Virus record (IMG/VR): IMGVR_UViG_3300022916_000066
Location: 1 to 29,147 of that record
Direction: 5' to 3' (one strand)
From: a virus
Length of the DNA: 29,147 bases
Shown here: positions 6,928 to 29,147 of the stretch, piece after piece
How the letters are laid out: every line of letters begins with the position of its first letter
How positions within the stretch are numbered: position 1 is the stretch's first letter
Notes under the pieces: generated by a model
Databases searched by the model: none
What the model was told of the DNA's origin: nothing
Seen by the model: the letters and a program-made list of their open reading frames with translations, nothing else
Program-made: the position numbers and the translations under genes

Positions 6928-7214
6928 TGTCAGACTCCTGCATGAAAGAGGAAGCCTCTGCATACAAGAACCGGAGGCAATCACTCCCTAAAAGTGAGAT
7001 ATGCCAGGGGATCAACAGATCAAAGAAGAAGAAGCCTATACGGCTTCTATACTTGTGCAAATATACTAAAAAGTGGCGAACCTGGAAGAGATACAGGTCA
7101 GTAGAGGAGGCACAGGGAGTTATTGATAAACTCCTGGTGAAATGGAGGGTATTCTCCAGGCCATTCAAAGTAACAGATTTTAAGATAATCGAAAATAAAC
7201 AAAGGACACGATAA
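6927..7214 (+). CDS. Small basic hypothetical protein (95 aa)
   Basis: Start and stop each share one base with the neighbouring genes (TAATG). The 95-residue product is strongly basic (KKKKPIRLLYLCKYTKKWRT, then KRYRSVEEAQGVID) and could bind DNA or RNA. The middle has the feel of a small beta-alpha domain: two strands around LLYLCKYTKKWRTWKRY, a helix SVEEAQGVIDKLLVKW, and a last strand FKVTDFKII. I recognise no family. Its place immediately before groES in the same operon suggests co-expression with capsid assembly factors. Confidence 0.6.
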   Translation: MSDSCMKEEASAYKNRRQSLPKSEICQGINRSKKKKPIRLLYLCKYTKKWRTWKRYRSVEEAQGVIDKLLVKWRVFSRPFKVTDFKIIENKQRTR

Positions 7215-7573
7215 TGGAAACAATGAAACAAGACAGCCCCTACGAGATGGATTTAGGGGAAACTTTCAAAATGATAGATGATAAGGTCCTGGTAGCCCCC
7301 TGGGATATAGCTGACAAGACTGACAGCGGTATCATCCTCCCTGATAGTATGAAGGAGAAGGAACGGGAAAAGAACCGCAAGGGCACTGTTATAGCAGTAG
7401 GACCAGGGCACAGAAGCGACTCAACCAATGTTCTTCATCCGGTAGAGGTCAAACCTGGTGATGATATATGCTTTGAGCGATTAGCAGGCACAGAGGTTGA
7501 AATCAAGGGTGTTAAGTACCTTGTGATGAACGAAATGTCTATTCTTGCAACACTTCCCCCGTTAGTGGGATAA
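7214..7573 (+). CDS. groES: Phage GroES-type co-chaperonin
   Basis: The 119-residue protein aligns by eye with chaperonin 10 over residues 17-112. It has the opening strand MIDDKVLVAPW, a mobile loop (residues 31-57) whose GroEL-contact tripeptide is IIL at 40-42 (IVL in E. coli GroES), the strand GTVIAVGPG, the roof-loop region, then VKPGDDICF, and an ending ISILATL-like (MSILATL). The mobile-loop flank is unusually charged (KEKEREKNRKG). Co-chaperonins cap GroEL and set the size of the folding chamber; phage versions such as T4 gp31 are needed to fold capsid protein. Placement just before the scaffold and capsid genes supports that role. An N-terminal extension of about 15 residues precedes the core fold. 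Confidence 0.92.
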   Translation: METMKQDSPYEMDLGETFKMIDDKVLVAPWDIADKTDSGIILPDSMKEKEREKNRKGTVIAVGPGHRSDSTNVLHPVEVKPGDDICFERLAGTEVEIKGVKYLVMNEMSILATLPPLVG

Positions 7574-7582
7574 AAAATATAT

Positions 7583-7639
7583 CAGTAGCTATTAATTTAT
7601 TTCTCCAAATATATTAAGTTATAGCTGCTGTTTACAGCA
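7583..7639 (+). ncRNA. Structured intergenic RNA: long hairpin with an overlapping alternative hairpin
   Basis: Arms 7583-7592 (CAGTAGCTAT) and 7621-7630 (ATAGCTGCTG) pair over 10 bases with one G-T wobble. Inside, 7593-7602 pairs with 7607-7616 around a CTCC loop with a single mismatch; four bases bulge on the right side. TGCTG at 7626-7630 can instead pair with CAGCA at 7635-7639. The two states exclude each other. No T-tract follows. This is the largest gap (100 bases) within the morphogenesis genes. Confidence 0.4.
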
Positions 7640-7673
7640 ATTTCAAAACGATAACACACAAGGACAAAGTATT

Positions 7674-8132
7674 ATGTCGAAAAACGATTTAAATAATATA
7701 GCAGAAAATATGGGGCAAACCCTCAAGGATAATGAGGATCCTGGTGAAGATCATGTGTTTCCTCAAAACAATCCCACTGATGAGAAGGATGAGCCCAAAG
7801 GTCTGGATAATACAGATGAAACAGAAGAATTAGAGTTTGTGGCTGGAGACATGGGAGATATCCCTGACTATGGCCATGAGAATATTAAATGGAAACTGTA
7901 TTCTATCCAAACCAACCGGCACGGGATAACCACTGTAACTGAAGTAATGGCAAACAAACCAGGACAATCAGCAGCAGCATACGGAGTTATTCTAAAGATA
8001 ACCACTATACAAGATGAGAAAGTCATGGCTGTGAATACTGAGCAATTAGCAAATATGAAGCTGAAATATTTAGACAGCCGTAACCCTGACATTGGCTTTG
8101 CAATCGTAAACAAGAATGCGAGTGACAGATAA
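7674..8132 (+). CDS. Hypothetical protein preceding scaffold (152 aa)
   Basis: The ATG at 7674 follows AAGGA at 7660-7664. The first 60 residues are acidic and of low complexity (DNEDPGEDHVFPQNN, DETEELEFVAGDMGDIPDYG); residues 65-150 are a compact alpha/beta domain (IKWKLYSIQTNRHGITTVTE, AAYGVILKITTIQDEKVM, then LANMKLKYLDSRNPDIGFAI). The stop shares one base with the scaffold start, so the two are coupled. Acidic disordered leaders of this kind are also seen in scaffold-associated or decoration proteins, so a role in capsid assembly is possible. No family recognised. Confidence 0.65.
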   Translation: MSKNDLNNIAENMGQTLKDNEDPGEDHVFPQNNPTDEKDEPKGLDNTDETEELEFVAGDMGDIPDYGHENIKWKLYSIQTNRHGITTVTEVMANKPGQSAAAYGVILKITTIQDEKVMAVNTEQLANMKLKYLDSRNPDIGFAIVNKNASDR

Positions 8133-9196
8133 TGTCAGATAAAAACCATCAAAAAGAATTAGATCAAAAATTGACCTCTCCTGACGATTCGCTATCATTT
8201 CCCCAGGGAGTGATGGACCAGTTTGACGGTGATGAACCTATCAAACATGTTGATGGAGAAGGCAAAGAGATTCCATCTGAGGAAGAAATCGACTCAAGTA
8301 CCGACGAAAAGGGAAAAAGCCCCGATGATTCCAAAGATGAAGCAGGCAAGGAAAAACCAGAAGAGTCCTCTTCGGCTAAAACCGATAAGCCCCCAAGTAA
8401 GGATAAACCCGACACTGAAACCAAAGACAATGAGGATGGTGCCCTCAACGGAAAGAAGGAATTCACTAAGAGTTTAGTGGAATTGTTTGAAAGCGAAGCG
8501 TATGCAGATATGTCTGAGCCTGATAGAGCTTTATTGTTATCAGATTTAAACAATAGAAACAAACTCCGTGCATCCCTTACCGAAAAGACAAAGGTGTTAG
8601 CCAAGGAACGAGAGGATTATGATTCTTTTGTTGGCAAGTTTAGTCCCGAAGTCAGGAATAATGTTATAACTGCTCTAAAAGATGAAGATTTTATGGAACA
8701 GCTTAAAGATTATTTCTCTGATGTTGATGGTGGTAATCCATTCAAAGCCTTGAAAGAGGCGTTTGAGAAGGTAGGAGAGAGGGAAACCGTATCTACTACC
8801 GAGAGAACGGAAGCTACTACCAAGGGACTGGCCGAAGAGAGAAAGCTACTTGTAGCTATGGACAGCAAGTTTTCTGATGATACGGTATTCAACACATTGG
8901 TAGATGAAACCATTCAAACGGTTAATGATATCAATGCGAAGGAACCTATCATGTCAGCATACAAGCTGAACCATGTCCTTCCTGCCAAGATCGATGAAGT
9001 AACGAATTTAAAGGCTGAATTAAAGAAGGCCAATAAAGAAATATCGGACCTCAAAGCTAACCCTTTGCGTAAATCTGCCCCCTATGCCAATGGCGAAGGG
9101 GTATCAAAAGTCATACCTGCAAACGACGATAACTCCATGGAAACAGCTATAGATAATGCTAAAGCTGCTATGGGATTTGAAGAGGATGAGGTATGA
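8132..9196 (+). CDS. Capsid scaffolding protein
   Basis: The position directly before the major capsid gene and the composition identify this 354-residue protein. Residues 1-110 are disordered and made largely of Asp, Glu, Ser, Lys and Pro. Residues 110-290 are helical (FTKSLVELFESEAYADM, NVITALKDEDFMEQLKDYF, FKALKEAFEKVGE) and 290-315 a coiled coil (VTNLKAELKKANKEISDLK). The end (KAAMGFEEDEV) is again acidic. Scaffolding proteins bind capsid subunits through a small helical end and leave or are degraded before DNA entry. I see no protease motif. Assignment rests on context and composition, since scaffolds share little sequence. Confidence 0.8.
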   Translation: MSDKNHQKELDQKLTSPDDSLSFPQGVMDQFDGDEPIKHVDGEGKEIPSEEEIDSSTDEKGKSPDDSKDEAGKEKPEESSSAKTDKPPSKDKPDTETKDNEDGALNGKKEFTKSLVELFESEAYADMSEPDRALLLSDLNNRNKLRASLTEKTKVLAKEREDYDSFVGKFSPEVRNNVITALKDEDFMEQLKDYFSDVDGGNPFKALKEAFEKVGERETVSTTERTEATTKGLAEERKLLVAMDSKFSDDTVFNTLVDETIQTVNDINAKEPIMSAYKLNHVLPAKIDEVTNLKAELKKANKEISDLKANPLRKSAPYANGEGVSKVIPANDDNSMETAIDNAKAAMGFEEDEV

Positions 9197-9214
9197 ACGC
9201 AAATTGGAGGCTTT

Positions 9215-10285
9215 ATGCCTGCTGCACATACCAAAACAGAAGTTACACGCATGATGAGCGACGTGGAGATTGCAACCAAGGAACATTTAATCCCCGTTGC
9301 AGTCAATCAGATATTGAATTCCAATATCATCATGAAAAGACTTCACAAAAGATCACGCCCATGGTCTGATGGTAAGCGGATCTCCTTCAACCTGAAATAT
9401 GGTGCTGGAGAAGTTAAAGAGAAAACCACTGGTTACGAAGAGATTGTAGTACAGATCTTCGATAGCTTTGAAAAAGGCTATATCGGTGGGCAGTATCTTG
9501 AAGCTGCTTACGGAATCAACGGACTTGACGTAGATGTGTTCAACACATCGAGGATGCAATTCCTCAACCTCACACTTGAAAAAGTGGAAACAATGAGAGA
9601 TGATTTCAAGAAGAAACATTCTGAAATGCTCTTTCGTTCATCTGGATCCGATGTATCCAGGTACCCTTCATTCAAAGATATGTTCACAACTCTCACCACA
9701 AGTCAAGAGATCTGTGAAATAGCTCCTGACGATCTTGAAATAGGATCAACAGGCGAATACGCATTTGATTGGTTACCAGAAGTGTACGATCACACGACTG
9801 CTGCACCTACTTATGCAAATCTTACCGATCCGACCTCAACCTACTTTATTGAACGCATGTTAAAGAAAGCGATCAGTAATATTGGTGAAAAGACCGGCCA
9901 CAAACCGACGCTTATTATATGCACAGCCCATGTATGGGATGCCTATGATGAGGTCCTTACCGACCGACAAATAGCGACACATGCCGAAAAACGGTATGAT
10001 GGTGGATATGATATCATAAAACTCCGTGGAGTGGACATTGTAGCTGATTCCTGGGTAGAAGGTGGATTCCAACAGCCCGGTGCTACTGCAACATGTTATA
10101 TCATTAACGAAAACTTCCTGCAATTATTCCATGCTCCAAAGCTGAATCACAAGTGGATTCCTTGGGAACAGATGGAAACGCAGTATGTCTATCGTACAAT
10201 GATGAGACACTTTGGTGGGATCGCTCCTACCAGGCGTGACGTGCATGGTTCAATCATCGGATTACCTTCAGAACACACAAGTTAG
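9215..10285 (+). CDS. Major capsid protein
   Basis: A strong ribosome site (TGGAGG at 9205-9210 area) precedes ATG 9215, as expected for the most abundant virion protein. The 356-residue product has the order of an HK97-fold capsid protein: an N-terminal helix (MMSDVEIATKEHLIPVAVNQ), the extended loop strands near 45-80 (GKRISFNLKYGAGEV), the long spine helix near 108-140 (RMQFLNLTLEKVETMRDDFK), then P- and A-domain segments with HKPTLIICTAHVWDAYDE, IIKLRGVDIVADS and CYIINENFLQLF. The C-terminal part ends with GGIAPTRRDVHGSIIG, a pattern seen in podoviral capsid proteins. No N-terminal protease-cleaved region is obvious. A decoration-like gene follows 9 bases later. Confidence 0.88.
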   Translation: MPAAHTKTEVTRMMSDVEIATKEHLIPVAVNQILNSNIIMKRLHKRSRPWSDGKRISFNLKYGAGEVKEKTTGYEEIVVQIFDSFEKGYIGGQYLEAAYGINGLDVDVFNTSRMQFLNLTLEKVETMRDDFKKKHSEMLFRSSGSDVSRYPSFKDMFTTLTTSQEICEIAPDDLEIGSTGEYAFDWLPEVYDHTTAAPTYANLTDPTSTYFIERMLKKAISNIGEKTGHKPTLIICTAHVWDAYDEVLTDRQIATHAEKRYDGGYDIIKLRGVDIVADSWVEGGFQQPGATATCYIINENFLQLFHAPKLNHKWIPWEQMETQYVYRTMMRHFGGIAPTRRDVHGSIIGLPSEHTS

Positions 10286-10294
10286 GAGATACTG

Positions 10295-10768
10295 ATGTTT
10301 AAACAAGAAAACATAAGAAGCAAAGCCCGTGCAGGGATAGTCTTTCCTACCGATTATAAAAACGGTGGGTTAGGTATAACAGCTTATAACGGTACAGGGG
10401 CAGCCCTGGTTATCGGTAAAGCGTACTTGCTTACCTACGGTGGCACAGAAGGGCAAGAGGTGAAAATCGCTGCTCCTGCAACGAACACAACCTTCTTGCA
10501 ACATGTAGTTGTCGCTCTTGAGGCTGTTCCTGATGAAGAAATAGGATATTTCCAGCTTAGTGGTGATTGCCAGGCTTTATTGGCTGGGACTGCTATCGCT
10601 GCTGGTGACTTCCTTGAAGTAGTCAATGCTGCCGATCAGTTAGTGGAAACAGGTACTTCACGAACCATCAACTGTGTGGCGATTGCTAAAGAGGCCCAAG
10701 CCGCAGCAGGGAGCGTTTTAACAGACGTTCAGATGATCGGTGAAGGCACCTTAATAGCTGCATCTTAA
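10295..10768 (+). CDS. Putative capsid decoration protein (157 aa)
   Basis: AGGAG at 10284-10288 precedes ATG 10295. The 157-residue, Ala/Gly/Thr-rich, weakly acidic protein is a string of short strands (ALVIGKAYLLTYGG, EVKIAAPATNTTFLQH, GDFLEVVNAADQLVE), as in small beta-barrel capsid cement proteins of the DUF2190 kind that usually follow the capsid gene. Such proteins bind the outside of the expanded shell and reinforce it. The call is from location, size and composition; an equally small head-fibre base protein cannot be excluded. A stable RNA hairpin follows its stop codon. Confidence 0.6.
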   Translation: MFKQENIRSKARAGIVFPTDYKNGGLGITAYNGTGAALVIGKAYLLTYGGTEGQEVKIAAPATNTTFLQHVVVALEAVPDEEIGYFQLSGDCQALLAGTAIAAGDFLEVVNAADQLVETGTSRTINCVAIAKEAQAAAGSVLTDVQMIGEGTLIAAS

Positions 10769-10779
10769 CCGCTTAATTT

Positions 10780-10803
10780 ATCCCCTGCCTTCGGGTGGGG
10801 GAT
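10780..10803 (+). ncRNA. UUCG-tetraloop RNA hairpin between capsid genes
   Basis: Ten pairs (eight Watson-Crick, two G-T) close a TTCG loop flanked by C and G, the exceptionally stable C(UUCG)G tetraloop. The following bases are GAGAAAT, not a T-tract, so it is more likely an mRNA stabiliser or processing boundary after the capsid/decoration genes than an intrinsic terminator. It lies just 5' of the next gene's ribosome binding site GGAGA (10811-10815). Confidence 0.6.
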
Positions 10804-10821
10804 GAGAAATGGAGAAATAAA

Positions 10822-11385
10822 ATGGGTATGAATATACTCCTTGCAAATAAATTCCTACATAAGCTGTTAGGTGACAATTACCATGAAACTGGTGGATTGA
10901 TTCAGTTCAAGAAGTGGACTCCAGACGTATTGGGTTCGGGTTCGGAGGTCAAATCAACCTGGGCCCTTCCTGCAAAATGCGTCGTATTGGAAGTTTTCGC
11001 TGACGTAAGAGTGGCCGAAGCTACTGCTTCATCTGAATTGGTTGATATTGGTACTGATGCTGGATCTGATGATCCTGATGGGTTTTTAGATGGTATTGAT
11101 ACTTCTACTACTGGTCTAAAATCAGGAGGAGGCGTTATTACTGAGGGAAGCAATGAACATTACCTCTCTGGTGCTACTCTTGGAGCTCTTCTAAGAGAAT
11201 ATCAAGAAGGGGCAGATGTTGCAGGCAACACAGGGTATTTAAAGAAAAAATGGGATTACACTTCGGGTGGGTCTGTTTTATCTATTACTCCTGTTGGTGC
11301 TGATTTCGATGATCTCGTTATTGATGTTTATATCGTTTATATTGACATCACTAACTTTAGCCCAAGCGTTATCGCTGTAGTCTAA
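10822..11385 (+). CDS. Virion structural protein, unknown (187 aa)
   Basis: I choose ATG 10822, placed 6 bases after GGAGA; an upstream GTG at 10795 would start inside the hairpin. The 187-residue protein is beta-rich. Its middle has a recurring phage pattern: strands with WALPAKCVVLEVFADVRVAE followed by LVDIGTDAGSDDPDGFLDGI, seen in uncharacterised virion proteins that sit near capsid and decoration genes. The last part holds FDDLVIDVYIVYIDI. It is likely part of the head surface or the head-to-tail junction. A second structured RNA element lies after its stop. Confidence is in it being a virion gene rather than in an exact role. Confidence 0.6.
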   Translation: MGMNILLANKFLHKLLGDNYHETGGLIQFKKWTPDVLGSGSEVKSTWALPAKCVVLEVFADVRVAEATASSELVDIGTDAGSDDPDGFLDGIDTSTTGLKSGGGVITEGSNEHYLSGATLGALLREYQEGADVAGNTGYLKKKWDYTSGGSVLSITPVGADFDDLVIDVYIVYIDITNFSPSVIAVV

Positions 11386-11395
11386 TAAACTATAT

Positions 11396-11457
11396 CCCTG
11401 CTTGCCGGGTGTTATCGTGCCAATCTTTTTAACGAGAGATTAGCTTGGTAAGCAGGG
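11396..11457 (+). promoter_or_regulatory. Structured leader that can hide a ribosome binding site
   Basis: CCCTGCTTGCC (11396-11406) pairs with GGTAAGCAGGG (11447-11457), 11 positions with one G-T pair. Inside, AATCT (11422-11426) can pair with AGATT (11437-11441). The right arm contains AGGGG, the Shine-Dalgarno sequence for ATG 11466, so folding would reduce initiation there. The left arm resembles the start of the hairpin at 10780 (TATCCC-TGC). Confidence 0.5.
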
Positions 11458-11465
11458 GTAAAGCT

Positions 11466-12200
11466 ATGGCTGATATAAACATACAGGGCCTCTTTACTAA
11501 TGCCGATCACGAGGATATCCGTAAGGGACATCTTCAAAAGGCAGAGAATATTCTGCTTGACAAGATTGGTGTAGCCAGGAAGAGGGACCCCAGGGCGAAA
11601 GCCTTTTCTCACCCTACCGGACTCATCCGGTCCATCTTTAGATTTATAAACGAAAACCTTCCCAATGGTGCTATATGGGTGGCACTGATTAATTATTCGA
11701 CTTACACACAGATTGAGTATTACGATGATGTAAACGATACCTGGACAGTTCTCACACTACCTGGTGAAACCAGGACAATACGAATGGGGCAAAGCTCTGA
11801 AGAGGGTCTTGGCCTTGAAACAGTTATAGCGGTAGTCAGTGGTGTATTCAATCTTAATTATGTGAAGATAAAAATTAGCACGAGCCCGGACACTGTAGCC
11901 GGGACAATGAAAGTCAATCCTGTAGCAGTGAAGATAGATGGTGCGGTTGGAGTTACAGTTAAAACAATAGAGATGATAGGTACACTTAATTATGTAAAAC
12001 TAAGTGTAGGAAAGGCTCTTACAGTGACAACGATAACAATGTCGGGGGCGGTGCCTGCATCGGTCCCAAATGTAGCTGTATCACCGGATACAGAAGAAAT
12101 TGCAGGGGATGTGGAAACATCTACCATTAAAATACAAGACGAGCCAGCAACACAAGGGGGAGCATTTACGCTCAATCCTGTAACGGTTCAAATCACATAA
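11466..12200 (+). CDS. Tail-hub related protein, N-terminal piece (244 aa)
   Basis: ATG 11466 follows the AGGGG site at 11454-11458; the in-frame TTG at 11445 lies in the leader stem and is less likely. Residues 10-45 (NADHEDIRKGHLQKAENILL, then DKIGVARKRDPR) resemble the opening of short-tail hub proteins of the P22 gp10/T7 gp12 kind, where a short N-terminal strand set ends in a 'G-x-x-x-K-R' signature. Residues 60-110 are a beta segment. Residues 125-244 are different: a Val/Thr/Ile-rich stretch containing two related units (LNYVKIKIS with VNPVAVKID, and LNYVKLSVG with LNPVTVQIT). The rest of a propeller hub is found in the genes at 12622 and 14934. Adhesin-like repeats or an Ig-like domain are possible for the second half. 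Confidence 0.6.
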   Translation: MADINIQGLFTNADHEDIRKGHLQKAENILLDKIGVARKRDPRAKAFSHPTGLIRSIFRFINENLPNGAIWVALINYSTYTQIEYYDDVNDTWTVLTLPGETRTIRMGQSSEEGLGLETVIAVVSGVFNLNYVKIKISTSPDTVAGTMKVNPVAVKIDGAVGVTVKTIEMIGTLNYVKLSVGKALTVTTITMSGAVPASVPNVAVSPDTEEIAGDVETSTIKIQDEPATQGGAFTLNPVTVQIT

Positions 12201-16853: not shown

Positions 16854-17028
16854 AACAGGCACCAGGAGAGAGATTGCCAAGCATAAGAGTACCAGGGTGA
16901 AAAACATTCCTCCAATAGCCCGTGATATACCTGAAGGGAAGTCTGTATTTGCCTATGATGGTGGTACAAAATATGAATACCGTAAAGTAAATGGAAAATT
17001 ATTAAGAAGAGAGTGGGAGGAAGTATAA
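16840..17028 (+). CDS. Small basic virion-region protein (62 aa), TTG start
   Basis: The frame opens with TTG at 16834 or 16840. AAGGGGG at 16826-16832 is properly spaced (7 bases) for TTG 16840, which I choose. The 62-residue protein is basic (GKTGTRREIAKHKSTRVKN), then has PPIARDIPEGKSVFAYDGG and ends with EYRKVNGKLLRREWEE. Small proteins with this 'P-P-I-A-R-D-I-P-E-G' and 'RKVNG' pattern occur between tail genes of related phages, without known role; they may be minor structural proteins. The gene overlaps the end of the upstream one by 14 bases and shares one base with the adaptor start. Confidence 0.6.
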   Translation: MNQGKTGTRREIAKHKSTRVKNIPPIARDIPEGKSVFAYDGGTKYEYRKVNGKLLRREWEEV

Positions 17029-17867
17029 TGCTTTGGACAGCACTTGAAACACGATGTCAACGATATCTTATTGATCCAGCTATAAACTATCAAACATTAC
17101 TGAAAGAGGCTGAAGAGGATCTATGTAGAGCAGGGTTTCTTTTACATTCATCCGAAACTCAAGATGCCTTTACCGATGTGAGAGCTTACCCGGTTCCTAC
17201 CGGGTTTGTAGCCGCAAAGATTATCCGGTATAAAGGGGAAGAGGTCCACTTCATGTATGAACATGATATGGTGCTTAATCTTTCTGGTGAAGTATATGCC
17301 GGTTATCCCTGGCGTTACTATATAACCAACACCGATACCGTTAATCTTGACAATTTCCCGACACTTGGAGCGACAAAGCAGACCATAACCGCTTTCGCAG
17401 ATAACACCATAATTGCAGCTGGCACAGTAAGAGCAACATTGGTGGATCATGGTTATTCTACAGGGGATGTTATTGTTATCCTGGCTACAACAAGTTATAA
17501 TGCAACTGAAACAATAACCGTACTCGATGATGATACTTTCTATTTCACAGCGACATGGGTGGCCACAGAGACAGGCACAGCCCATATTCAGAATAATAAC
17601 ATTGAGATAGTATATTACAGGGTCCCCACGGCAATAGAGCAGGCACTCACTTCACCAACCATTGAAGAGAAGTACCATGTAAAGCTGATTGACTATTGCT
17701 TGGCCATAGCTTATGCCGATGATAAATCCGGTAAGGGCATTGGTTATCAGCAGAAGTGGGACTTATTCGTAGAAGAGACAGCATTTCACAATAAACCACG
17801 ACCATACAAAAGGCAGATACCACTCAAAAGAAGGCCAGTTGTAGAGGGCTTGGAATTCAATATTTAG
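17028..17867 (+). CDS. Head-tail adaptor protein with an inserted beta domain (279 aa)
   Basis: GGGAGG at 17015-17020 sets the start at ATG 17028. The 279-residue product has the outline of podoviral adaptors (T7 gp11/P22 gp4-like): an N-terminal helical part (LETRCQRYLIDPAINYQTLL, KEAEEDLCRAGFLLH), a strand FTDVRAYPVPTGFVAAKIIR, and a C-terminal helical part (IEEKYHVKLIDYCLAIAYAD, then QQKWDLFVEET). Between residues 118 and 187 an extra beta domain is inserted (RATLVDHGYSTGDVIVI, then NATETITVLDDDTFYFT), a module also seen in other phage tail proteins. The protein forms a ring under the portal and carries the hub. Confidence is good for a virion adaptor and moderate for the exact homologue. 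Confidence 0.7.
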   Translation: MLWTALETRCQRYLIDPAINYQTLLKEAEEDLCRAGFLLHSSETQDAFTDVRAYPVPTGFVAAKIIRYKGEEVHFMYEHDMVLNLSGEVYAGYPWRYYITNTDTVNLDNFPTLGATKQTITAFADNTIIAAGTVRATLVDHGYSTGDVIVILATTSYNATETITVLDDDTFYFTATWVATETGTAHIQNNNIEIVYYRVPTAIEQALTSPTIEEKYHVKLIDYCLAIAYADDKSGKGIGYQQKWDLFVEETAFHNKPRPYKRQIPLKRRPVVEGLEFNI

Positions 17868-19840: not shown

Positions 19841-22800
19841 ATGCCCAAGAAACCTACCACGTTTGCAGAGTTATTAGCGAATTCTACTCCTGCTGTTATT
19901 GGGAATAAATCCCTTATAAACCCTCTATTTGATCCAAATAAAGCTGTATCCCTACAGGACTTCATTAATGTTTATACTCCCCCGGATGATAACCAGGGAT
20001 TCAATGCTGCTGATAGTATTGTTTCGATATATAATAATATTGATTTAAGCAAATCTATATCCAGCGACACAGGCATATTAGAGCTCGATACAGCGACATT
20101 ATCAAAAGCTATAGCGACGCAAGAAGGATGGGAGGCCCCTGATAGTAGGAACAGAAGGAACCATAACCCTGGCAACCTAAAGTTTATTGGCCAGGCAGGG
20201 GCAGTGGAGGACAGTGATGGTTTTGCTGTATTTGGTACTGATGAAGAGGGATGGGCTGCATTAGAGAATGACATCCAGGTAAAAAAAGACACAGCTAATA
20301 CTCCCTCTAATTTCTATGATAAATATGGCCTGACTAAAAAAACAGATAAACCAAAGAAGATTACATCCTTCCAGGATATACTCGACGCATCTACACCGTC
20401 AGAAATAAAAGAACCGGAAAAGGATCCCCTTGAGGGCCTGTATGAATACGAGATTCCAATAGCGAATTGGAGGCCCCACGAAGGCCAGCCAAATACCGTT
20501 GATAATATCCTCAAGTTAGAGGATGATTCCTGGTGGGAGAAATTTAGCTCTGACTTTGGTAAAAGTTTTGTAACTGGATCCGCACAGATGCAGGATCTTG
20601 CTGGTGGTGCCTTTGTCTATGCCGGGTTGGAAGATTTCGGGAATGATATTAGGGCAAACGCAGCAGTGACAATAAAGGATAATTATGTCGCTGGTCTATA
20701 CAAAGAATTTGAATGGGCTGATCTTATAGATTCTGAATTCTGGAGCTCAAAGTTTCCAGCAATGATCCCCTCAATGGTGACTCTTATTCCTTTATCGTTT
20801 ATAGGTGGTGCTGGTGGTGCAGCACTTACGGCCAGGCTTATTGCTGGCAGAACCATGACAATAGGTGCTCAGAAGTTAGCAGTAGGGGTAGGATCCTCAG
20901 TTGCAGCAGCTATCGCCTCCAGGCCAGCAGAATCAGCTATGGAAGCAATGGGAACATTTAATCAGCTGATAGATGAAGGGTACAGCAACGAAGAAGCCGG
21001 GGAAGCAGCTGCAAGGACATTTAAGTCCAACATGCTACTAATTGGCATGGATGCAGCACAATACGCCCTTGCAATGGGTAAACTGAATCCTCTCCTCCGC
21101 AATAACTTTATGAAAAGGATCATCACCTCCAGGACCGGAAATGCTGCTAAGGAAGCGGTGGAATTCACAGTAGCCTCAACATCCGAGGGTGTAGAAGAGG
21201 TCCTACAGAATTATTTCACTGAACTTGGTATTGCTTCAGCTCATGGTGATATTGACCCATCATTATTAGATGCAATCAGACTATCCTCTCCTGAACATAA
21301 AGAAGCCTTTGCACTTGGTACTATCGGAGGTGTGGGCTTCCAGATCGGTGGTAAGATTGCACAGAAGTTATCACCTGGTGATGTAAACAGGATAATCGAT
21401 GAACAGGAAGAAGCGTATAACGAGAAGATATTCAAAACCGAAGATGTTCGTAAGGATGGTAAGCCTGGTGAACCAGCCAGTGTGCAATATTATGATTCCC
21501 CTACAATACCTGGAAACTTCACAGTAGCGATATATGATATTAATGGAATACCATTAGAAAACATTCCTGCAAACAGTCATGACCAGGCCAAGGAATTCTT
21601 TGATGCAGCAGTAGAAAATATAAAAGCCTTTGTCCCGGAACCAGGTGTACCAGGATCCGAAGAGGTTACAGTAGATGCCAAGGAAGTAACAGCAGACTCT
21701 AAGCCTGTCACCGTCGATGCTAAAGAGGTTACTGAACAATTAGAAACGATAAAGACAGAAATTACCGATGCTCTCACATCCGAGGATGATATTCCTCTCA
21801 GTCACCCGTCATTATACAATAACCTGGTAAAAGACCGTGAAGCAACAAAGAGAGTCCTGGATGAGTTAGAAGCAGCTGGCCAGATAGTTGTTGATGGGAA
21901 AACAGTCAAGAGGGGTGAGAAGTTTGCCAAGTCACCCGTCGAACAAGAAACAAAGAAACTTGAAAAAGCAGAGGATAAACTGCAAGATACTGACACCACT
22001 GGCCACGGGATAAGAATAGGTGGCATAAAGGCCGATGAGATGCCTATGCTTGACAAAATGATAGAGCAGACTATCACAGATGGAATTGAGAAGGGCCGAA
22101 CCAAAGTAGAGATACACGCCAAGATAAATAGACTCTTACAGCAAAGCGAAATGTATGTTATTGAGTCAAACGAACTTGGTGCCTATATTAAGAACCGGAT
22201 GGAGGATGGACCGGAGATAGGTAATAACAAACAGCCGTTTGGGATCTGGAGAAAAGGGGAAACGGGAGCAACGGACAGGGAAGCTCACACCACAGGAGTT
22301 TATAATAGGAAACTTAAAATAATAGAAACCTCTGATAATCCTATTGAAAAGCTGACCGCTATAAACAGTATTAAAAAAAGAATGGAAAATGATGGAAGTG
22401 ACACATCGGACATAAGTGCTATAATTGATCCTATTGAGGCAGAATTAAAAGCCCAGGGTTATGAAATAGTTGACTTAGTTGGAAGGGAGTTTGATGATGG
22501 CATGGAGCTTGGTGATGCACAATTTGTTGGTGATGATAACTTAAAAGAAGGCGATAGGATTATTACCGGGGTTACAAAGGCACATATAACCCTTAATGGA
22601 AAATTAGTCCAACCTGGTGATGTTATTATCACCCAGGGATATAGACCTCTAACTGAAGAAGAAGCAGGCCAAAAACAGGCCAAGGAAAAGAAAGATTTAG
22701 AGAGTAGAAAAGCTCTAAAAAAAGAGATGTTTAAGGATGATGATCCCGTCGAGAAACCTAAACCACAGGCCAAGGAAAAAGATGATAGGATAGTTGGCGA

Positions 22801-25800
22801 TGTATATGTTAAGGGTATAGAAGAGATTGTTATTCAATTCGAGGGGTCCAGAGCAGTATCCTCAAATGGAGATGCCAGTGCAACCATAAAGGTTATAAAG
22901 AAAGACAATGGTAAATGGATCCAAGGGATAACGATGGATGCCCATGCTTCGACACTGGAGATACAGTTAAGTTTATTAAATGAAGAGTTTAATACAAAAA
23001 CTGAGGCAATACTCGCAGCAATAAAAGAGATAGAATCTAATCTTGGACACAGGGATACACCGCAACAGAAGAAATTACAAGCCTTTAAAGATAAATTTAT
23101 AAAAGATAATCCCCCTCCTAAACCACAGGCCAATATTAACGAGGCAGAGAAGGCCACAGGATTTAGAATCATTGATAAATATAATGATGTGGATGAGGCA
23201 TATAACCAACAAAAAGCAGATGGATATGAACAAGTAGCTGCATTATGGGAAGATGGACTCAAGGATTTATCGGATCCAGAAGATTTCCACGGTAAACAAA
23301 TAGTCCAGTTTAAAAAAGATGGCAGAGAGGTTGTCATTGTTAAATTAAAAAGGCCCCCTGGTAAGAGGGGGCTCTATAAAAACCGTGATGATAAATGGCA
23401 GAAAGAACCCGTATATAGTTACTGGCTACAGGTAGAGAAGAAAAAATCTATCGAGAAGCCAAAACTTAAAAAACAGGCCAAGGCTCCAAAGGAAGCTCTC
23501 CCGGAATTCAAAATTGGTGACAAAGTAGCTTACAGGAAACCCCGTGGAAAATCCGGTGGTTTCTTCGAGAAGGTCCATATTGGCAGTGTCACCAGTGTAA
23601 ACACACTTGATGGTAAAGTAGATTCCTATGTCGTAGAGAGCGAATACACCCTTAAACCTGGTGATGTATCAGTACCGGCAAAAACTCAGGCATTGAGAGA
23701 TTTTCATAAAGCCTGGGAAGCTGTCCCGGATAAAAAGGAACGACGGGATTTAAAGGAAACCCTCAAAGCGATTGATGATAAGGTTAAAACTCACTATGAG
23801 ATGTTCTTTGGGGACCAGGAGGAAGCAGTAGCCCTATTAGATGCTCTGCAAAAAGGGGCTGTTAGTGAAAAAGACTTCGCAATAGCCTTCAGTAAATTTT
23901 TCAAAGATGATGTTATCCCAATGATGGAGAAAAGGTTAGGGATAACCGGGCTCGATAACCCTGTTACCAGGGCGAGAGCTGCAAGTGACATAAACGACTA
24001 TATAAACCAAGTATTAGAAGAAGATGCCGACAATACAGATCCGGGCGAGGAAGAAGATCCAGAGCTCGATGATGCTATAACTTTCTTTGATAATATTGGA
24101 AAAGAGGAGAACCTATTTGATGAAGCGTTTGACGATGAAAGCCTGGGAGACAAAGATAAGGCAGGGGATAAAGGCCCTACCGAAGAACAGAAGAAAACCA
24201 GTGCTGAAGATACTGGAAAAACGGATACTGAAGAGGGCGAGGGAAAGCAAGCAGTAGGTGAAGAGGGATTTAGGACCTGGTATAAAACCCAGGAAGAAGC
24301 GGAGGCCGATGCTGCTATAATGAAAAAAGAGGGCCTGGCGGTAGGATCAGTAAATCAAGCCTATAACAAGGATGATTTACAATGGCGAATATACCGGACA
24401 CAGGAGGATACAGGGAGACTTAATAAAGAATTCCGAGCGAAAGCTACTGCAATCTCCAAAAAAGAAGCAGGGGAACAGGCAGCAGCTCAAAAGATTAAAG
24501 ATGATGTAGATGGATTCGATGAGGGTATGACTCCATTAAAAAGAGGAGCAGTATTAAAAGCCCTCAATAAAGACTTGCGGATTGACAATAAGGTCATGTC
24601 CAGGAAAGAAGCCGTTAAATATCTCCTGGGCAAAGGGGAAACGACATCTACCAGGGAAGAAGATAAAATAAAGCCTATGTCCAGGAGGGCATATAACCAA
24701 GCGAATAACCAAGAGCAGGAAGCTCACGAGAAGAAGGTTGAGCAGGCTGGCAAAAAGACAGTTTATAACATTGGTGGCTATGACCTTGGAAAAACAGCCT
24801 ATGATTATGCGAATTATTTAAACAATCTCAATAAACCCAAGAAGAAGATCACCAGGAAGGCCCGTACAGTTGAAGAGGTACAAAAAGAGATATCAGAGGT
24901 AAACAAACAACTATCACAGGCAGAGCGTAAAAGAGATCAAATAGCTGAGAGAAGTAAGGCAGCCGGTCAAGGAGGGTTATTCGGGGCCCCTTCAGACCAA
25001 GCAGGATTATTTGGCCAGGATGATTTCACTGATGCTATGAAGGATGCAAAGGATACTATTCATTCTCTAAAGAATAAACTTCATGATTTATCCTCTGAAG
25101 TAGAGAAAATAGGAAGTGATGAGACAGGGGACCTATTTGAAAAGCCAAAGAAGAAAATAGAACGTAAAACCGACGAGAGCACGGTTACAATAAATGGACA
25201 GACTCTATCAAATAAATTGGTGAGCGTGTTTGAAAGTATAAAGGGAGTTGCGAAGGGATATTTAGATAATTCATTTAGGAAAATATCTTTTGGTGATGCC
25301 TCCTCACTTACGGACTCATTCAGAAATATTTATGGGAAAGATGCGACCTTCAAGGAAATGTTCTCAGAATTCCATAAAATATTTGGATCCCTTGGTATAG
25401 GGAAAGGAATTCAGGAAGAGGGTGGGGGCAGATCATCCGGCATAACAGCCAAGGACATGGTTAATGCTACCAGGCACTATCTTGATGCAATAGCCAAAAA
25501 AGAGGCTCCCAAGAAGCAGACTGAACACCCTGATATTGGGAAAACAGTAACTATTCCAAAATATAGATCTATGGCCGGGATAACTGTGCATGGATACATA
25601 GGGAAGGTTTTAGAGCATACCCCTGCAACCCGAAGTGTTCCCTACGATTATTTTGAGATAGAGGTTATAGGTCCTATACCTGGCAACAAGGTTGCTATCA
25701 AAGAGGAAGATAGAGTCTTTGAGCCCGGTGAAACAACGAGTGTAAGAGTTGACAGTGTAGTTTTACCTGAAACAGAATCCGCAAAGAAGAAGATAGTTAA

Positions 25801-28800
25801 GAAGAAATCCCCTGCTGAACTCAAAGCTGAGAAGGAAGCCTTTAAACTATCAGGCGAATATAACTCTGAGAAGGAATTCAGAGCTGCAATAAGAGCCTTT
25901 GAGAAGGGAATGAATTACACCCTCGATTATTCTTATCCGACCAATAAAAATGGCAATAATGTGTTTGCTGATATAAAGGGTGATGAGGGAATAATAAAAT
26001 TATGGGGGCCCATAAATACAGAGGGCAATACAAGAGGTATAGAAGTAAGTATCCCCATCGAATTTGAAAACGGGAAAATAATAATATCGGAGGATTTCCA
26101 ATGGACTCACATATTACGGTTTGTAAAGCCTGATAAATTTGAAAGGACCGCAGCACAAGGACTTGGGGGAGCAGAATATGGCGAAAGACGCACGGTAATA
26201 GATGCAAATATAGATGCAAACACTACAGCAAAAGAGTTAGCAGGGATAATAAAAAAGGAAATATCCCCACAGAAGAAAATTGAGAAAAAAGTCTCTGACA
26301 AAGAGCAGGAAACCTACGAATATGAAAAGGCAAAGTGGGATGATCTGATTGCCAGGAATGGCCAGAAAGCGGTTGCCAGGATAACTTCTTATCTTGCAAG
26401 TAAGGCTATTGGTGTACCCGAAGGAGTCACGGCCGAACAGCACCGTAAGGATACCCATTTTACAAAGGCATATAATTACCTGAAAGAGCTGGTAAATAAG
26501 CACAAGGAAGAAGCCCCAAAAAAGCGGATTGAGAAGAAGCAGGGGGCCTATAAATACCGATTAACCCAAAGACCTCCATCTATCGGTACACATCCAGACG
26601 GAAGCATAGGGGATGCGGTAGAGGTGAAAGTTGGGAATAGGACCCACTGGATACTTACTTATCCCAATGTATTATCAGATGAAGTGCTCCGTAAATATGA
26701 GATGGTGCCCGATTATGATAAAAGTATTGAGGGGAATGTATATCAGAGGAGGGGATTATCCCTCAAGGTATTAGAGGTAAAAGATGGGGAGGTATTTGTA
26801 GAATATTTCTATGATGCCAAGGAAAAGACACAGCCCAAAACTCTATCATACCTACAGTTATTCCAGGAGCTAAACAGTGACTTCAAAAAGGTTGTTGAGG
26901 CCCCGGAAGTAGCTCCAAAGAAGAAGATTGAACGTAAAAAGACCGAAGCCCAGGAACCTACCACGGATATCCTGAAGGCCAATAAACTGGAAATAATTGA
27001 GAAAGAATCCAAGAAGGGTAACACCTATTGGGTAGTCACTGGCGAGGGAACATTCCAGCATAAAGACTTAATAAAGAAACTTGGATCCAAAAAATTTAAT
27101 AGATTCCTGAAAGGATGGTTATTCTTCGATGCCAACCCAAAGCAAAAACTTATCAACGAGCTCTCCGGGACTGACGGAGCAACAGTGGAACCAGGAGCTA
27201 AATCAAGCCCTGAAGATACCAGCGATAGCAGAGCTGATACACAAAAAGTGGACAGAGCTGAGAGAGATAGAATTAAAGGAATTCGATCTGAGCAAGATGC
27301 CAGATCCGACGAGAGCAGAATTGCTGACGATTTACAAAAATATGTATCACCAGGTACAATCAGCCTAATAAACAAAGGTAAGGAATTTGGTATTCCTCAA
27401 AAGGTCCTGGATGAACAGATAGAGGATGTCGCATTAATCAATCGAGCATACCAGGCAGGGAAACCTCTTTTCCTCCTGGCCAATGAAGCCGGTACTGGAA
27501 AAACATTTGTACTTGGCGGTGCAATACGGGAACTGAAGGCAGCAGGAGTCAAGGATATAACCTATGTGACGATGAGCCAGGATCTCATTAAGCAGATTAA
27601 AAACGATCTCCAGGAATACGGCATAGATGATATTAATTTTGTTACCTACTCTAAATTAAGCAGTTATTCACCTGACAAGATAGGTGCGATAATATTCGAT
27701 GAATCGCAGAATGTAAAGAATGTGGCAAGCGGAAGAGGGAAAGCAGCCGTAGAGCTTATAAAGGAACACAAACCATTTACAATACATACCTCTGCTACTC
27801 CATTTGAGAACCCGGTAGAAGCTGGATATTTTGAAGCTACAGGCATATTTGATGAGGCCGGTGGATTCCTGGATTGGGCGAAGGCTTATGGTGCAGCCGT
27901 AAGGAAACAGAAATATTATGATTATGCAGCTGGAAAGAAAGTTGTAATAGAAACACCATATTGGGCCGGTGGGCATGTAAAGGATGGCCAGGCAGCCCGG
28001 ACATGGTTCTTCAGACAGGGGATAATGACTCAAAGGCCAATGCAGATCCCCCCTGCTATGGTGGATGTTACCTTCAAAAAGGTGACAGTGGATAAAAAGT
28101 GGGTAGATCTCTATAACAGCATAACTGATGCCCTGGATGATACACAGCATTTATATTCCAAAGAAGGTGAAAACCCTGATCCAATGCTCTTTATGCAGAT
28201 TGGAGCATATAAAACCAATCTACAGAAAAGAATACTTGAGTCATCAAAAGTTGAAGAAGGGATAAAAAGAGCCAAGGAGCATTTATCTGATGGTAAATCA
28301 GTAGTATTATTTGTTGAAACAAAAGCCCAACGGTCCTTTGACGCAGCGGATATATCAGCTATAATGACAAGGTTCAACCAAACCAAGCAAAAGGGCGATA
28401 AACCTCCTTATTCAAAAGTAGTCCATGCAGTAGCCGAGTCTCTGCTTAATGCAGGGATAGATTCATTTACCCTCAATGCAACTGAAGAAATGATAAAAGA
28501 TGGCCTGGGAACTGATAACGTGGGTATCTACACGGGATCCGTTACCAACGCCAAGGCACAGAAGAACCTCCAGGAGTGGAGGGCTCAGAAGAAAAAAGTC
28601 CTGGTTGCGACCATGGCCAAAGGTGGGACCGGATTATCATTACATGATACTGAAGGGGATCGACCTACAGCACAGATAAACATTAACCTCCCATGGAAAG
28701 CTACTGGAGTTGACCAGGTATCAGGCAGGGTGGCCAGGTATGGGATCCAAAGCAAAGCCAATATTGAATGGTTATTTGCCAATAATATAGATTTCGATAA

Positions 28801-29147
28801 ATCCCTATCATCCAAAGTAGGCCGTAGGATGAGTGATATGGGTGCGATTGTTAAGGGTGTAGATTTATCCTCCGCACAGGTACTCTCTGACTTTGACTTT
28901 GAAGATACAAAGATACAGCGAACCGAAGCTGCAAAGAAAGTACAGGCCGGTGAAAAAGAATCAGTTGAAGAGATGTACGACAGAGCCCACAAGATGGAAC
29001 AGCACAGATCAAAGGCTGATGATACAAGCGGTGGATTCTTCCAGACTCCATTACCTGTTTCCCTGGTTATGTCCAGGATATCAGGATTACGGGAAGGCGA
29101 TAGCTTATTAGAACCAAGTGCCGGGCATGGTGCATTACTTAAATTTA
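19841..29147 (+). CDS. Giant polyvalent virion protein: lysozyme-like, SF2 helicase, methyltransferase (3' partial)
   Basis: The frame runs from ATG 19841, one base after the upstream stop, to the window end without a stop: at least 3102 residues. Order of parts: lysozyme-like domain (about 80-155); hydrophobic helices (305-365 and 397-413) followed by EGVEEVLQNYF; a duplicated VTVDAKEVT (609-631); a winged-helix-like segment (647-694); a GrpE-like beta segment (867-935); several small modules joined by KQAK and PKKKIERK linkers (944-2367); a small 'lGxxxfNrflkGW' module (about 2384-2430); an SF2 helicase (2510-3010); and the start of an N6-adenine-type methyltransferase (from 3063). This matches the polyvalent-protein concept (phage and plasmid proteins injected with DNA, such as P1 DarB). 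I infer virion location from gene order and wall-degrading domain. The C-terminus, including MTase catalytic motif, is outside the window. Confidence 0.9.
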   Translation, partial: MPKKPTTFAELLANSTPAVIGNKSLINPLFDPNKAVSLQDFINVYTPPDDNQGFNAADSIVSIYNNIDLSKSISSDTGILELDTATLSKAIATQEGWEAPDSRNRRNHNPGNLKFIGQAGAVEDSDGFAVFGTDEEGWAALENDIQVKKDTANTPSNFYDKYGLTKKTDKPKKITSFQDILDASTPSEIKEPEKDPLEGLYEYEIPIANWRPHEGQPNTVDNILKLEDDSWWEKFSSDFGKSFVTGSAQMQDLAGGAFVYAGLEDFGNDIRANAAVTIKDNYVAGLYKEFEWADLIDSEFWSSKFPAMIPSMVTLIPLSFIGGAGGAALTARLIAGRTMTIGAQKLAVGVGSSVAAAIASRPAESAMEAMGTFNQLIDEGYSNEEAGEAAARTFKSNMLLIGMDAAQYALAMGKLNPLLRNNFMKRIITSRTGNAAKEAVEFTVASTSEGVEEVLQNYFTELGIASAHGDIDPSLLDAIRLSSPEHKEAFALGTIGGVGFQIGGKIAQKLSPGDVNRIIDEQEEAYNEKIFKTEDVRKDGKPGEPASVQYYDSPTIPGNFTVAIYDINGIPLENIPANSHDQAKEFFDAAVENIKAFVPEPGVPGSEEVTVDAKEVTADSKPVTVDAKEVTEQLETIKTEITDALTSEDDIPLSHPSLYNNLVKDREATKRVLDELEAAGQIVVDGKTVKRGEKFAKSPVEQETKKLEKAEDKLQDTDTTGHGIRIGGIKADEMPMLDKMIEQTITDGIEKGRTKVEIHAKINRLLQQSEMYVIESNELGAYIKNRMEDGPEIGNNKQPFGIWRKGETGATDREAHTTGVYNRKLKIIETSDNPIEKLTAINSIKKRMENDGSDTSDISAIIDPIEAELKAQGYEIVDLVGREFDDGMELGDAQFVGDDNLKEGDRIITGVTKAHITLNGKLVQPGDVIITQGYRPLTEEEAGQKQAKEKKDLESRKALKKEMFKDDDPVEKPKPQAKEKDDRIVGDVYVKGIEEIVIQFEGSRAVSSNGDASATIKVIKKDNGKWIQGITMDAHASTLEIQLSLLNEEFNTKTEAILAAIKEIESNLGHRDTPQQKKLQAFKDKFIKDNPPPKPQANINEAEKATGFRIIDKYNDVDEAYNQQKADGYEQVAALWEDGLKDLSDPEDFHGKQIVQFKKDGREVVIVKLKRPPGKRGLYKNRDDKWQKEPVYSYWLQVEKKKSIEKPKLKKQAKAPKEALPEFKIGDKVAYRKPRGKSGGFFEKVHIGSVTSVNTLDGKVDSYVVESEYTLKPGDVSVPAKTQALRDFHKAWEAVPDKKERRDLKETLKAIDDKVKTHYEMFFGDQEEAVALLDALQKGAVSEKDFAIAFSKFFKDDVIPMMEKRLGITGLDNPVTRARAASDINDYINQVLEEDADNTDPGEEEDPELDDAITFFDNIGKEENLFDEAFDDESLGDKDKAGDKGPTEEQKKTSAEDTGKTDTEEGEGKQAVGEEGFRTWYKTQEEAEADAAIMKKEGLAVGSVNQAYNKDDLQWRIYRTQEDTGRLNKEFRAKATAISKKEAGEQAAAQKIKDDVDGFDEGMTPLKRGAVLKALNKDLRIDNKVMSRKEAVKYLLGKGETTSTREEDKIKPMSRRAYNQANNQEQEAHEKKVEQAGKKTVYNIGGYDLGKTAYDYANYLNNLNKPKKKITRKARTVEEVQKEISEVNKQLSQAERKRDQIAERSKAAGQGGLFGAPSDQAGLFGQDDFTDAMKDAKDTIHSLKNKLHDLSSEVEKIGSDETGDLFEKPKKKIERKTDESTVTINGQTLSNKLVSVFESIKGVAKGYLDNSFRKISFGDASSLTDSFRNIYGKDATFKEMFSEFHKIFGSLGIGKGIQEEGGGRSSGITAKDMVNATRHYLDAIAKKEAPKKQTEHPDIGKTVTIPKYRSMAGITVHGYIGKVLEHTPATRSVPYDYFEIEVIGPIPGNKVAIKEEDRVFEPGETTSVRVDSVVLPETESAKKKIVKKKSPAELKAEKEAFKLSGEYNSEKEFRAAIRAFEKGMNYTLDYSYPTNKNGNNVFADIKGDEGIIKLWGPINTEGNTRGIEVSIPIEFENGKIIISEDFQWTHILRFVKPDKFERTAAQGLGGAEYGERRTVIDANIDANTTAKELAGIIKKEISPQKKIEKKVSDKEQETYEYEKAKWDDLIARNGQKAVARITSYLASKAIGVPEGVTAEQHRKDTHFTKAYNYLKELVNKHKEEAPKKRIEKKQGAYKYRLTQRPPSIGTHPDGSIGDAVEVKVGNRTHWILTYPNVLSDEVLRKYEMVPDYDKSIEGNVYQRRGLSLKVLEVKDGEVFVEYFYDAKEKTQPKTLSYLQLFQELNSDFKKVVEAPEVAPKKKIERKKTEAQEPTTDILKANKLEIIEKESKKGNTYWVVTGEGTFQHKDLIKKLGSKKFNRFLKGWLFFDANPKQKLINELSGTDGATVEPGAKSSPEDTSDSRADTQKVDRAERDRIKGIRSEQDARSDESRIADDLQKYVSPGTISLINKGKEFGIPQKVLDEQIEDVALINRAYQAGKPLFLLANEAGTGKTFVLGGAIRELKAAGVKDITYVTMSQDLIKQIKNDLQEYGIDDINFVTYSKLSSYSPDKIGAIIFDESQNVKNVASGRGKAAVELIKEHKPFTIHTSATPFENPVEAGYFEATGIFDEAGGFLDWAKAYGAAVRKQKYYDYAAGKKVVIETPYWAGGHVKDGQAARTWFFRQGIMTQRPMQIPPAMVDVTFKKVTVDKKWVDLYNSITDALDDTQHLYSKEGENPDPMLFMQIGAYKTNLQKRILESSKVEEGIKRAKEHLSDGKSVVLFVETKAQRSFDAADISAIMTRFNQTKQKGDKPPYSKVVHAVAESLLNAGIDSFTLNATEEMIKDGLGTDNVGIYTGSVTNAKAQKNLQEWRAQKKKVLVATMAKGGTGLSLHDTEGDRPTAQININLPWKATGVDQVSGRVARYGIQSKANIEWLFANNIDFDKSLSSKVGRRMSDMGAIVKGVDLSSAQVLSDFDFEDTKIQRTEAAKKVQAGEKESVEEMYDRAHKMEQHRSKADDTSGGFFQTPLPVSLVMSRISGLREGDSLLEPSAGHGALLKF
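20081..20305 (+). other. Lysozyme-like domain of the giant protein
   Basis: Residues 81-155 contain LSKAIATQEGWEAPDSRN, with the likely catalytic Glu at 95, then NHNPGNLKF (NPGN at 109-112) and FAVFGTDEEGWAALENDI. This is the pattern of phage-borne peptidoglycan-cleaving lysozyme/glucosaminidase-like domains. In an ejection protein it would open the cell wall locally to let DNA pass. Catalytic activity is inferred. Confidence 0.8.
20753..21085 (+). other. Hydrophobic, possibly membrane-active region of the giant protein
   Basis: Residues 305-365 are Gly/Ala/Ile-rich (FPAMIPSMVTLIPLSFIGGA and GVGSSVAAAIASRP) and 397-413 hydrophobic again (MLLIGMDAAQYALAMG). Such helices could insert into the cell membrane during DNA entry, as ejection proteins do. 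Confidence 0.5.
21665..21733 (+). repeat. Duplicated nine-residue unit VTVDAKEVT
   Basis: The unit at residues 609-617 (21665-21691) recurs at 623-631 (21707-21733), separated by five residues. The DNA copies differ at several third positions, so the repeat is old or selected at the protein level. Confidence 0.8.
22439..22645 (+). other. GrpE-like beta segment of the giant protein
   Basis: Residues 867-935 read LKAQGYEIVDLVGREFDDG, then GDRIITGVTKAHITLNGKL, then VQPGDVIIT. This follows the order of the GrpE C-terminal beta domain (G-v-x-x-I-d-x-x-G-x-x-F-D, then g-x-V, then G-Y-x-L-n-g-k-x-L-R-P-x-x-V-x-V). A helical part precedes it. The similarity is by eye only; the Arg before Pro is Gln here. 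Confidence 0.35.
22670..23500 (+). repeat. KQAK-type linker repeats in the giant protein
   Basis: Four linkers share the core Q-A-(K/N) preceded by Pro/Lys: QKQAKEK (residue 944), PKPQAKEK (972), PKPQANIN (1092) and LKKQAKAPK (1208). They separate distinct small modules. Confidence 0.65.
24830..26941 (+). repeat. PKKKIERK-type linker repeats in the giant protein
   Basis: Seven related basic linkers occur near residues 1664 (KPKKKITRK), 1767 (KPKKKIERK), 1889 (APKKQTEH), 1981 (AKKKIVKKK), 2143 (PQKKIEKK), 2225 (APKKRIEKK) and 2358 (APKKKIERKK). Spacing is about 80-160 residues, one small domain each. Confidence 0.8.
26990..27130 (+). other. Small beta-alpha module preceding the helicase
   Basis: Residues about 2384-2430 read YWVVTGEGTFQHKDLIKKLG followed by SKKFNRFLKGWLFF. 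The pattern 'T-G-x-T-F-x-h-K-x-x-l-K-x-l-G-x-x-F-N-x-x-L-K-G-W' recurs in plasmid and phage proteins beside helicases and methyltransferases. Function unknown; nucleic-acid contact is likely. Confidence 0.5.
27368..28870 (+). other. SF2 helicase domain of the giant protein
   Basis: Walker A NEAGTGKT lies at residues 2548-2555, motif II DESQ at 2620-2623, motif III SAT at 2651-2653, motif V region ATMAKGGTGLSLHD near 2924, and motif VI QVSGRVARYG at 2959-2968 with the arginine fingers. The layout is that of SNF2/strawberry-notch-like helicases found in DarB-type antirestriction proteins. Confidence 0.88.
29027..29147 (+). other. Start of an N6-adenine-type methyltransferase domain (cut by the window)
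   Basis: After FFQTPLPVSLVMSRI comes LLEPSAGHGALLKF, the S-adenosylmethionine-binding motif I (EPSAGHG at 3091-3097). The preceding 'T-P-x-x-L/V-x-x-M' helix is usual for N6-adenine methyltransferases. The catalytic N/D-P-P-Y/F motif would lie outside the window. Confidence 0.8.

Follow-up and report, generated by a model that had tools for sequence, protein, structure and literature searches.

A probable DarB-like giant protein of a podophage-like virus with a predicted Enc34-type wall hydrolase in reversed half order

The giant protein encoded at the right end of the window, by which we mean the complete virus record of 29,147 bases that was analysed, is probably a divergent DarB-like polyvalent virion protein of a short-tailed phage that is packed in the head, opens the cell wall and then acts with a helicase-methyltransferase pair on the incoming DNA. 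The fusion of a wall enzyme, a helicase and a methyltransferase, which an earlier sequence-only reading had regarded as new, is already known from the DarB-like giants of the podophages Bcep22, CSP3, JC1, Parlo and Skulduggery. The precedents of CSP3, Bcep22, Parlo and Skulduggery, along with the frequent occurrence of lysozyme domains in polyvalent proteins, remove this claim of novelty. The novelty lies in the entry module and not in the fusion, and the distinctive traits of the window giant look to be a putative Enc34-type wall enzyme with permuted halves and a set of six basic linkers. The combination of wall opening and DNA protection is an established theme to which the window adds a divergent example, and its entry module broadens the wall enzymes of DarB-like giants beyond the SLT type.

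Extent and genomic context of the giant gene

The giant open reading frame is located on the plus strand and extends without a single stop codon from the ATG at position 19841 to the end of the contig (19841-29146), where it is still open after at least 3102 codons. The ATG is preceded by an AGAAGGA-like ribosome site, and an in-frame TTG is present upstream at position 19817. A random open frame of this length has a probability of about 10^-82 at 42% GC, and the codon-position GC is uniform along the frame, in agreement with the single chain of at least 3102 codons that had been claimed. The assembly breaks off within the coding sequence, and both the stop codon and the catalytic motif of the methyltransferase fall past the contig end. 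A search for contigs extending past the giant gene yielded two that are 100% identical to positions 1-12000 of the window and stop at about 13-14.7 kb. One identical contig extends 21 kb upstream of the window, where it contains stand-alone methyltransferase-like genes as well as genes of early type; it does not contain the missing C-terminus, as it shares not one 25-mer with the distal window. A search of viral and genome contigs by peptide and DNA patterns revealed no close relatives of the whole giant, which counts against the main reading.

The genes upstream of the giant encode a terminase small subunit, a likely large subunit with 25% identity to annotated large terminases, a portal protein (4455-6500, plus strand; PHROG_156, 4.4e-29), GroES, a major capsid protein (9215-10285, plus strand; PHROG_9953, 6.2e-15) and an SU10-type adaptor (17013-17867, plus strand; Pfam SU10_adaptor, 3.3e-9). 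These genes form a late block typical in kind of a virus that is podophage-like. The sequence-only reading had placed the giant where T7-like phages encode their ejection proteins, but a T7-like setting was rejected, since the gene families and their order differ from those of T7, as is evident from the PHROG_156 portal, the SU10 adaptor and the upstream terminase genes. The location of the gene after the adaptor gene and within the late block, together with the N-terminal wall hydrolase, makes it very improbable that the giant is synthesized late and remains unpackaged in the producing cell. The DarB-like giant gp69 of phage JC1 was moreover detected in virions, with 51 unique peptides obtained from CsCl-purified particles (PMC9144972).

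Additional genes of the same virus deserve mention. The GroES (Cpn10) gene lies between the portal and capsid genes (7214-7573; Pfam, 1.9e-22). Two stand-alone DNA methyltransferase-like genes of its upstream part are located on the minus strand (L227:1134-1928 and 623-1117), in which the motifs NPPY and DIPY were recognized by eye. The far end of the identical contig harbours, on the minus strand (L228:8849-10394), genes for a peptidase-like protein of 147 aa and for small hydrophobic proteins, with a response-regulator-like gene of 163 aa between them; judged by its gene content, this group may represent a lysis cassette.

Helicase and methyltransferase modules

An SF2/SNF2-type helicase module occupies residues ~2501-3007 of the giant (27341-28861, plus strand). 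The Pfam families ResIII (aa 2524-2602, 2.3e-5) and Helicase_C (aa 2892-2968, 3e-4) matched this region, and the DNA-helicase family PHROG_62 of the PHROGs collection matched the protein at 1.4e-18. In an alignment of the window giant with four known giants the helicase motifs I, II, III, V and VI are kept, and the nearest neighbours according to PDB profiles are SNF2/Rad54-type helicases. The same alignment located a motif-X-like stretch followed by motif I (LLEPSAGHG, aa 3089-3097) on the C-terminal side of the helicase. This start of an N6-adenine-type methyltransferase, with its EPSAGHG core (29030-29146, plus strand), attained 34.6 bits with a profile built from relatives, compared with at most 5.8 bits in 200 shuffles. 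The contig ends inside the domain, only a few residues past motif I, and the NPPY/F motif of the relatives is located 60-64 residues beyond motif I. The helicase and the methyltransferase start named in the sequence-only reading are thereby both confirmed.

The window giant shares with DarB-like giants the length of the frame (at least 3102 codons, within a range of about 3000-5600), the SF2 helicase with intact motifs, the placement of methyltransferase motif I roughly 540-690 aa downstream of Walker A and a wall hydrolase near the N-terminus, which is a trait of some members and here of the Enc34 type. The helicases nearest to that of the window, with 37-49% identity, are found in the giants of loci L010, L011 and L012, in which a methyltransferase is undetectable; this counts against the main reading. 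The L012 giant contains an inorganic pyrophosphatase domain after the helicase and the L011 giant a ddrB-ParB domain before it.

Linkers, DarA_C domain and hydrophobic stretch

The middle region of the giant contains six near-identical PKKKIERK-like linkers between small modules, starting at residues 1666, 1769, 1980, 2143, 2225 and 2358. These are PKKKITRK (24836-24859), PKKKIERK (25145-25168), SAKKKIVKK (25778-25804), PQKKIEKK (26267-26290), APKKRIEKK (26513-26539) and APKKKIERK (26912-26938), all on the plus strand. The mean number of linkers in shuffled sequences was 0.7, and six were reached in none of 2000 block shuffles. The DNA copies of the linkers differ at synonymous sites, which indicates either old duplications or maintenance at the protein level. 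With a loose linker pattern, three giants among the relatives gave three scattered matches each, and a comparable run was not found. The repeated linkers suggest a simple route for the gain and loss of modules in giant proteins, or might represent cleavage sites.

One basic linker immediately precedes a DarA_C domain (PF18789; aa 2235-2293, 26543-26719, plus strand), which was detected by Pfam with an E-value of 6.3e-8, over the curated cut-off. This domain takes its name from a protein that belongs, like DarB, to the P1 system. The many small modules of the sequence-only reading are plausible, although DarA_C, which that reading had overlooked, is the sole one that can be named. A hydrophobic stretch at residues 305-331 (20753-20833, plus strand; hydropathy above 1.4 over 19 residues) is a possible membrane segment. 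The assumption of membrane-type helices is thus retained for one segment and weak in the plural, since a single stretch exceeds the 19-residue cut.

Comparison with known giants and proposed mode of action

The DarB-like proteins Bcep22 gp75, JC1 gp69, CSP3 orf43, Parlo 081 and Skulduggery gp28 are, like the window giant, single chains, with a length of ~3700-4700 aa. Several of them have an N-terminal wall enzyme, their SF2 helicase precedes an N6-type methyltransferase, and their genes are located downstream of tail genes and upstream of lysis genes, the genes following the known giants encoding an endolysin or lysozyme and a holin. CSP3 orf43 was described as a fusion of a murein transglycosylase, a HepA helicase and an adenine methylase (PMC10269572), and a further report places a lytic transglycosylase at the N-terminus of Bcep22 DarB (PMC6630229). 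The window giant differs from these proteins by its Enc34-type wall enzyme, where theirs is of the SLT type, by the DarA_C domain and the repeated basic linkers, and by an identity of only 23-25% in the helicase region; its C-terminus is located outside the contig, including the part corresponding to the LPD38 or LPD39 domain that is present near the C-terminus of the relatives.

Domain scans yielded the order SLT, ResIII, helicase C, MTS and LPD39 for the giants of Parlo and Skulduggery, and ResIII, helicase C, MTS, GNAT and LPD38 for those of Vibrio 1.232.O and Ruegeria 45A6. P1 DarB likewise combines an SNF2-type helicase with an N6 methyltransferase, but the methyltransferase (N6_Mtase, 145-290) precedes the helicase (SNF2, 849-1517), opposite to the order in the window, and Pfam detects no wall enzyme. 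The difference from P1 DarB that had been pointed out is thus real, whereas the order as such is not unusual. Walker A, EPSAG and NPPY/F follow each other in this order in 70 of 85 relatives and the reverse order occurs in none; the remaining 15 helicase relatives lack one motif as written, so that the order was scored in 70, all of which share it. The order of helicase and methyltransferase was therefore discarded as a novelty. The distinct N-termini of the relatives contained an SLT domain in 11 of 53 cases and Phage_lysozyme2 in one of 53, and the NPGN domain described below was found in none of the 85 helicase relatives.

The presence of several unrelated conflict domains in one chain characterizes the window giant as a polyvalent protein in the sense of Iyer 2017. 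The HExxH motif of zincin-like metallopeptidases, which is frequent but not universal in polyvalent proteins, is absent from the visible part of the giant, and a self-processing peptidase of this type was rejected for this part. Another polyvalent giant of at least 2678 aa (L113:6495-14528) also starts with an NPGN hydrolase, but this has the canonical half order and is followed by RadC and ADP-ribosyltransferase domains, without the helicase-methyltransferase pair according to Pfam.

By analogy with the known giants, we infer that the protein is packaged and ejected and that it functions in wall cutting and DNA protection. The giant would be packed in the head and ejected along with the DNA, and its N-terminal Enc34-type glycosidase would open the murein, as has been proposed for the lysozyme domains that polyvalent phage proteins often bear and that may breach the wall on entry (PMC5512222). 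The hydrophobic stretch could aid the giant in reaching or crossing the inner membrane. The helicase-methyltransferase pair would then act on the incoming DNA, blunting type I-like restriction, and DarA_C would, like the remaining small modules, contribute accessory functions against the host. The earlier idea that one chain serves entry and then protection is retained in this respect, as the modules co-occur and the logic fits polyvalent and DarB-like proteins, but not in its T7-like placement.

The helicase-methyltransferase pair might instead have a role in transcription, in replication or in the packaging of DNA. Remodellers of the SNF2/Rad54 type are the nearest neighbours of the helicase profile, the same virus possesses two or more stand-alone genes for DNA methyltransferase-like proteins, and the cited literature documents protection from restriction for P1 DarB and not for podophage giants. 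We nevertheless consider a role other than restriction escape unlikely, since the same chain includes DarA_C, a domain whose name comes from the P1 system, and P1 DarB itself protects DNA in cis (PMC5512222).

An Enc34-type wall hydrolase with reversed halves

Profile searches domain by domain, as proposed in the sequence-only reading, identified the helicase and the DarA_C domain by Pfam, whereas the N-terminus of the giant matched nothing in Pfam or NCBIfam. Searched by sequence against the PDB, the N-terminus alone likewise gave no match. The motif RNHNPGN (aa 106-112) pointed to a large phage family with the consensus RNNNPGN ... F..F.TPE.G..AL ... YAPP.EN..Y ... AII.HEGG, members of which match the PHROGs annotated as 'endolysin' and 'tail injection transglycosylase'. 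The profile of this NPGN domain matched the structure of the Enc34 endolysin (7q47) with an E-value of 1.3e-28 and a fold match probability of 1.00. Twelve residues are invariant across 31 canonical domains, among them one glutamate (E108) that aligns with Glu131 of Enc34 and with Glu95 of the window. The catalytic domain of Enc34 cuts murein, and Glu131 is taken as the catalytic residue (PMC8943055). The position of Enc34 Tyr95 is occupied by serine in the window according to the alignment, which counts against the main reading; a tyrosine is also missing at this position in the canonical-order domains of L119 and L166. The wall enzyme of the giant is, by these matches, a predicted hydrolase of the Enc34 type (PHA02564) and not a usual SLT domain. 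The lysozyme-like domain of the sequence-only reading is thus recovered by a custom profile, with a family and a half order other than expected and no Pfam match.

A profile built from 68 canonical domains was used to determine the order of the halves. The RNHNPGN half (aa 106-171; 20156-20353, plus strand), comprising RNHNPGN, F-x-x-F, EEGW..AL and a weak extra helix copy, matched profile positions 1-72 with 46-51 bits and with 98.9% in a profile-profile comparison. The glutamate half, which ends with the predicted catalytic helix carrying Glu95 (QEGW), is located in front of it (aa 34-100; 19940-20140, plus strand) and matched positions 52-115 with 11.8 to 19.8 bits, varying with the sequence length scored, compared with at most 7.2 bits in 2000 shuffles, about 1900 of which received a reported score. 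This match is modest (domain E-value 0.076 when 5740 frames were searched) and counts against the main reading. Both halves combined span profile positions 1-115, and positions 52-72 are matched twice, with a weak second helix copy at residues 155-161. MAFFT alignments with the canonical halves supplied separately placed the window halves in the same reversed order, and locus L116 has the same arrangement with 38 and 42 bits. AlphaFold modelled residues 31-160 as one confident unit, with block pLDDT values of 80-95 except for 73 around residues 101-110, close to where the halves meet. Compared with the canonical model, the helices follow each other in rotated order, and residues 155-161 form an additional short helix that corresponds to the repeat of the first helix. 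A Foldseek search of the model against the PDB gave no significant match, which again counts against the main reading; the top five hits included the murein hydrolases 4kt3 and FlgJ 5dn4, but at E-values above 1 and hence not counted as evidence, and a search of viral models returned weak lysin matches.

The predicted window hydrolase resembles the catalytic domain of Enc34 in RNxNPGN, F-x-x-F, aromatic-x-P-P and the position of the catalytic glutamate, and differs in that its glutamate helix precedes the RNxNPGN half and the Tyr95 position is not tyrosine; furthermore, Enc34 is a lysis enzyme, whereas the window domain is part of a giant late protein. At the level of sequence it is circularly permuted, with the catalytic-glutamate half ahead of the RNxNPGN half, and is considered a relative of the Enc34 family rather than a canonical member on account of the reversed halves. 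According to the authors of the Enc34 study, the glutamate-bearing helix is the last in Enc34 and the first in GH73 and GH23 enzymes (PMC8943055). The window hydrolase is predicted to place this helix first, like GH23/GH73 and unlike Enc34.

We infer that both halves form one working enzyme, and on balance favour the view that this is a circular permutant of natural origin in which the helices have returned, within the Enc34 family, to the GH23/GH73 order. The segment might alternatively consist of two decayed remnants of tandem copies that are inactive, leaving the giant solely with anti-restriction functions. The weak extra helix at residues 155-161 after the RNHNPGN half is expected from duplication and trimming, and the equivalent of Enc34 Tyr95 is lost. 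Duplication and trimming are, however, the usual path to working circular permutants as well. Counterparts of the family-invariant residues, the glutamate among them, can be located in the two halves, these jointly span profile positions 1-115 within one confident AlphaFold model, and L116 independently shows the same order, so that decay of tandem copies appears rather improbable.

The reading as a working permutant gains context from about 15 further loci (L090, L091, L210-L217 and L219-L223), in which the catalytic EGW is located immediately before RNNNPGN. These helix-first NPGN hydrolases share the GH23/GH73 helix order; their YAP/Tyr region is still last, after the NPGN half, whereas it precedes the glutamate helix in the window. 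The alignment of their profile to Enc34 starts only at RNNNPGN, as would be expected after relocation of the glutamate helix. The reversed-half and the helix-first arrangements are read as putative rotations of one fold and provide a testable case linking Enc34 endolysins to GH23/GH73 lysozymes. Enc34 endolysins have been described as having sequences with no discernible resemblance to those of other endolysin types. If the interpretation is true, the permutant and the helix-first hydrolases would represent the missing sequence link, the 'permuted core' of Enc34 would derive, through rotation, from ordinary lysozyme-fold enzymes, and phages would deploy several rotations of one enzyme for entry and lysis.

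A short peptide repeat (MPKKPTTFAELLANSTP / PKKITSFQDILDASTP) is present on both sides of the wall hydrolase, at residues 1-17 and 171-186 (19841-19891 and 20351-20398), and is possibly a packaging or portal-binding peptide. Other NPGN proteins contain short repeats of their own near the hydrolase, such as TYNPDEW in L113 and EFISDxxFAQM in L167.
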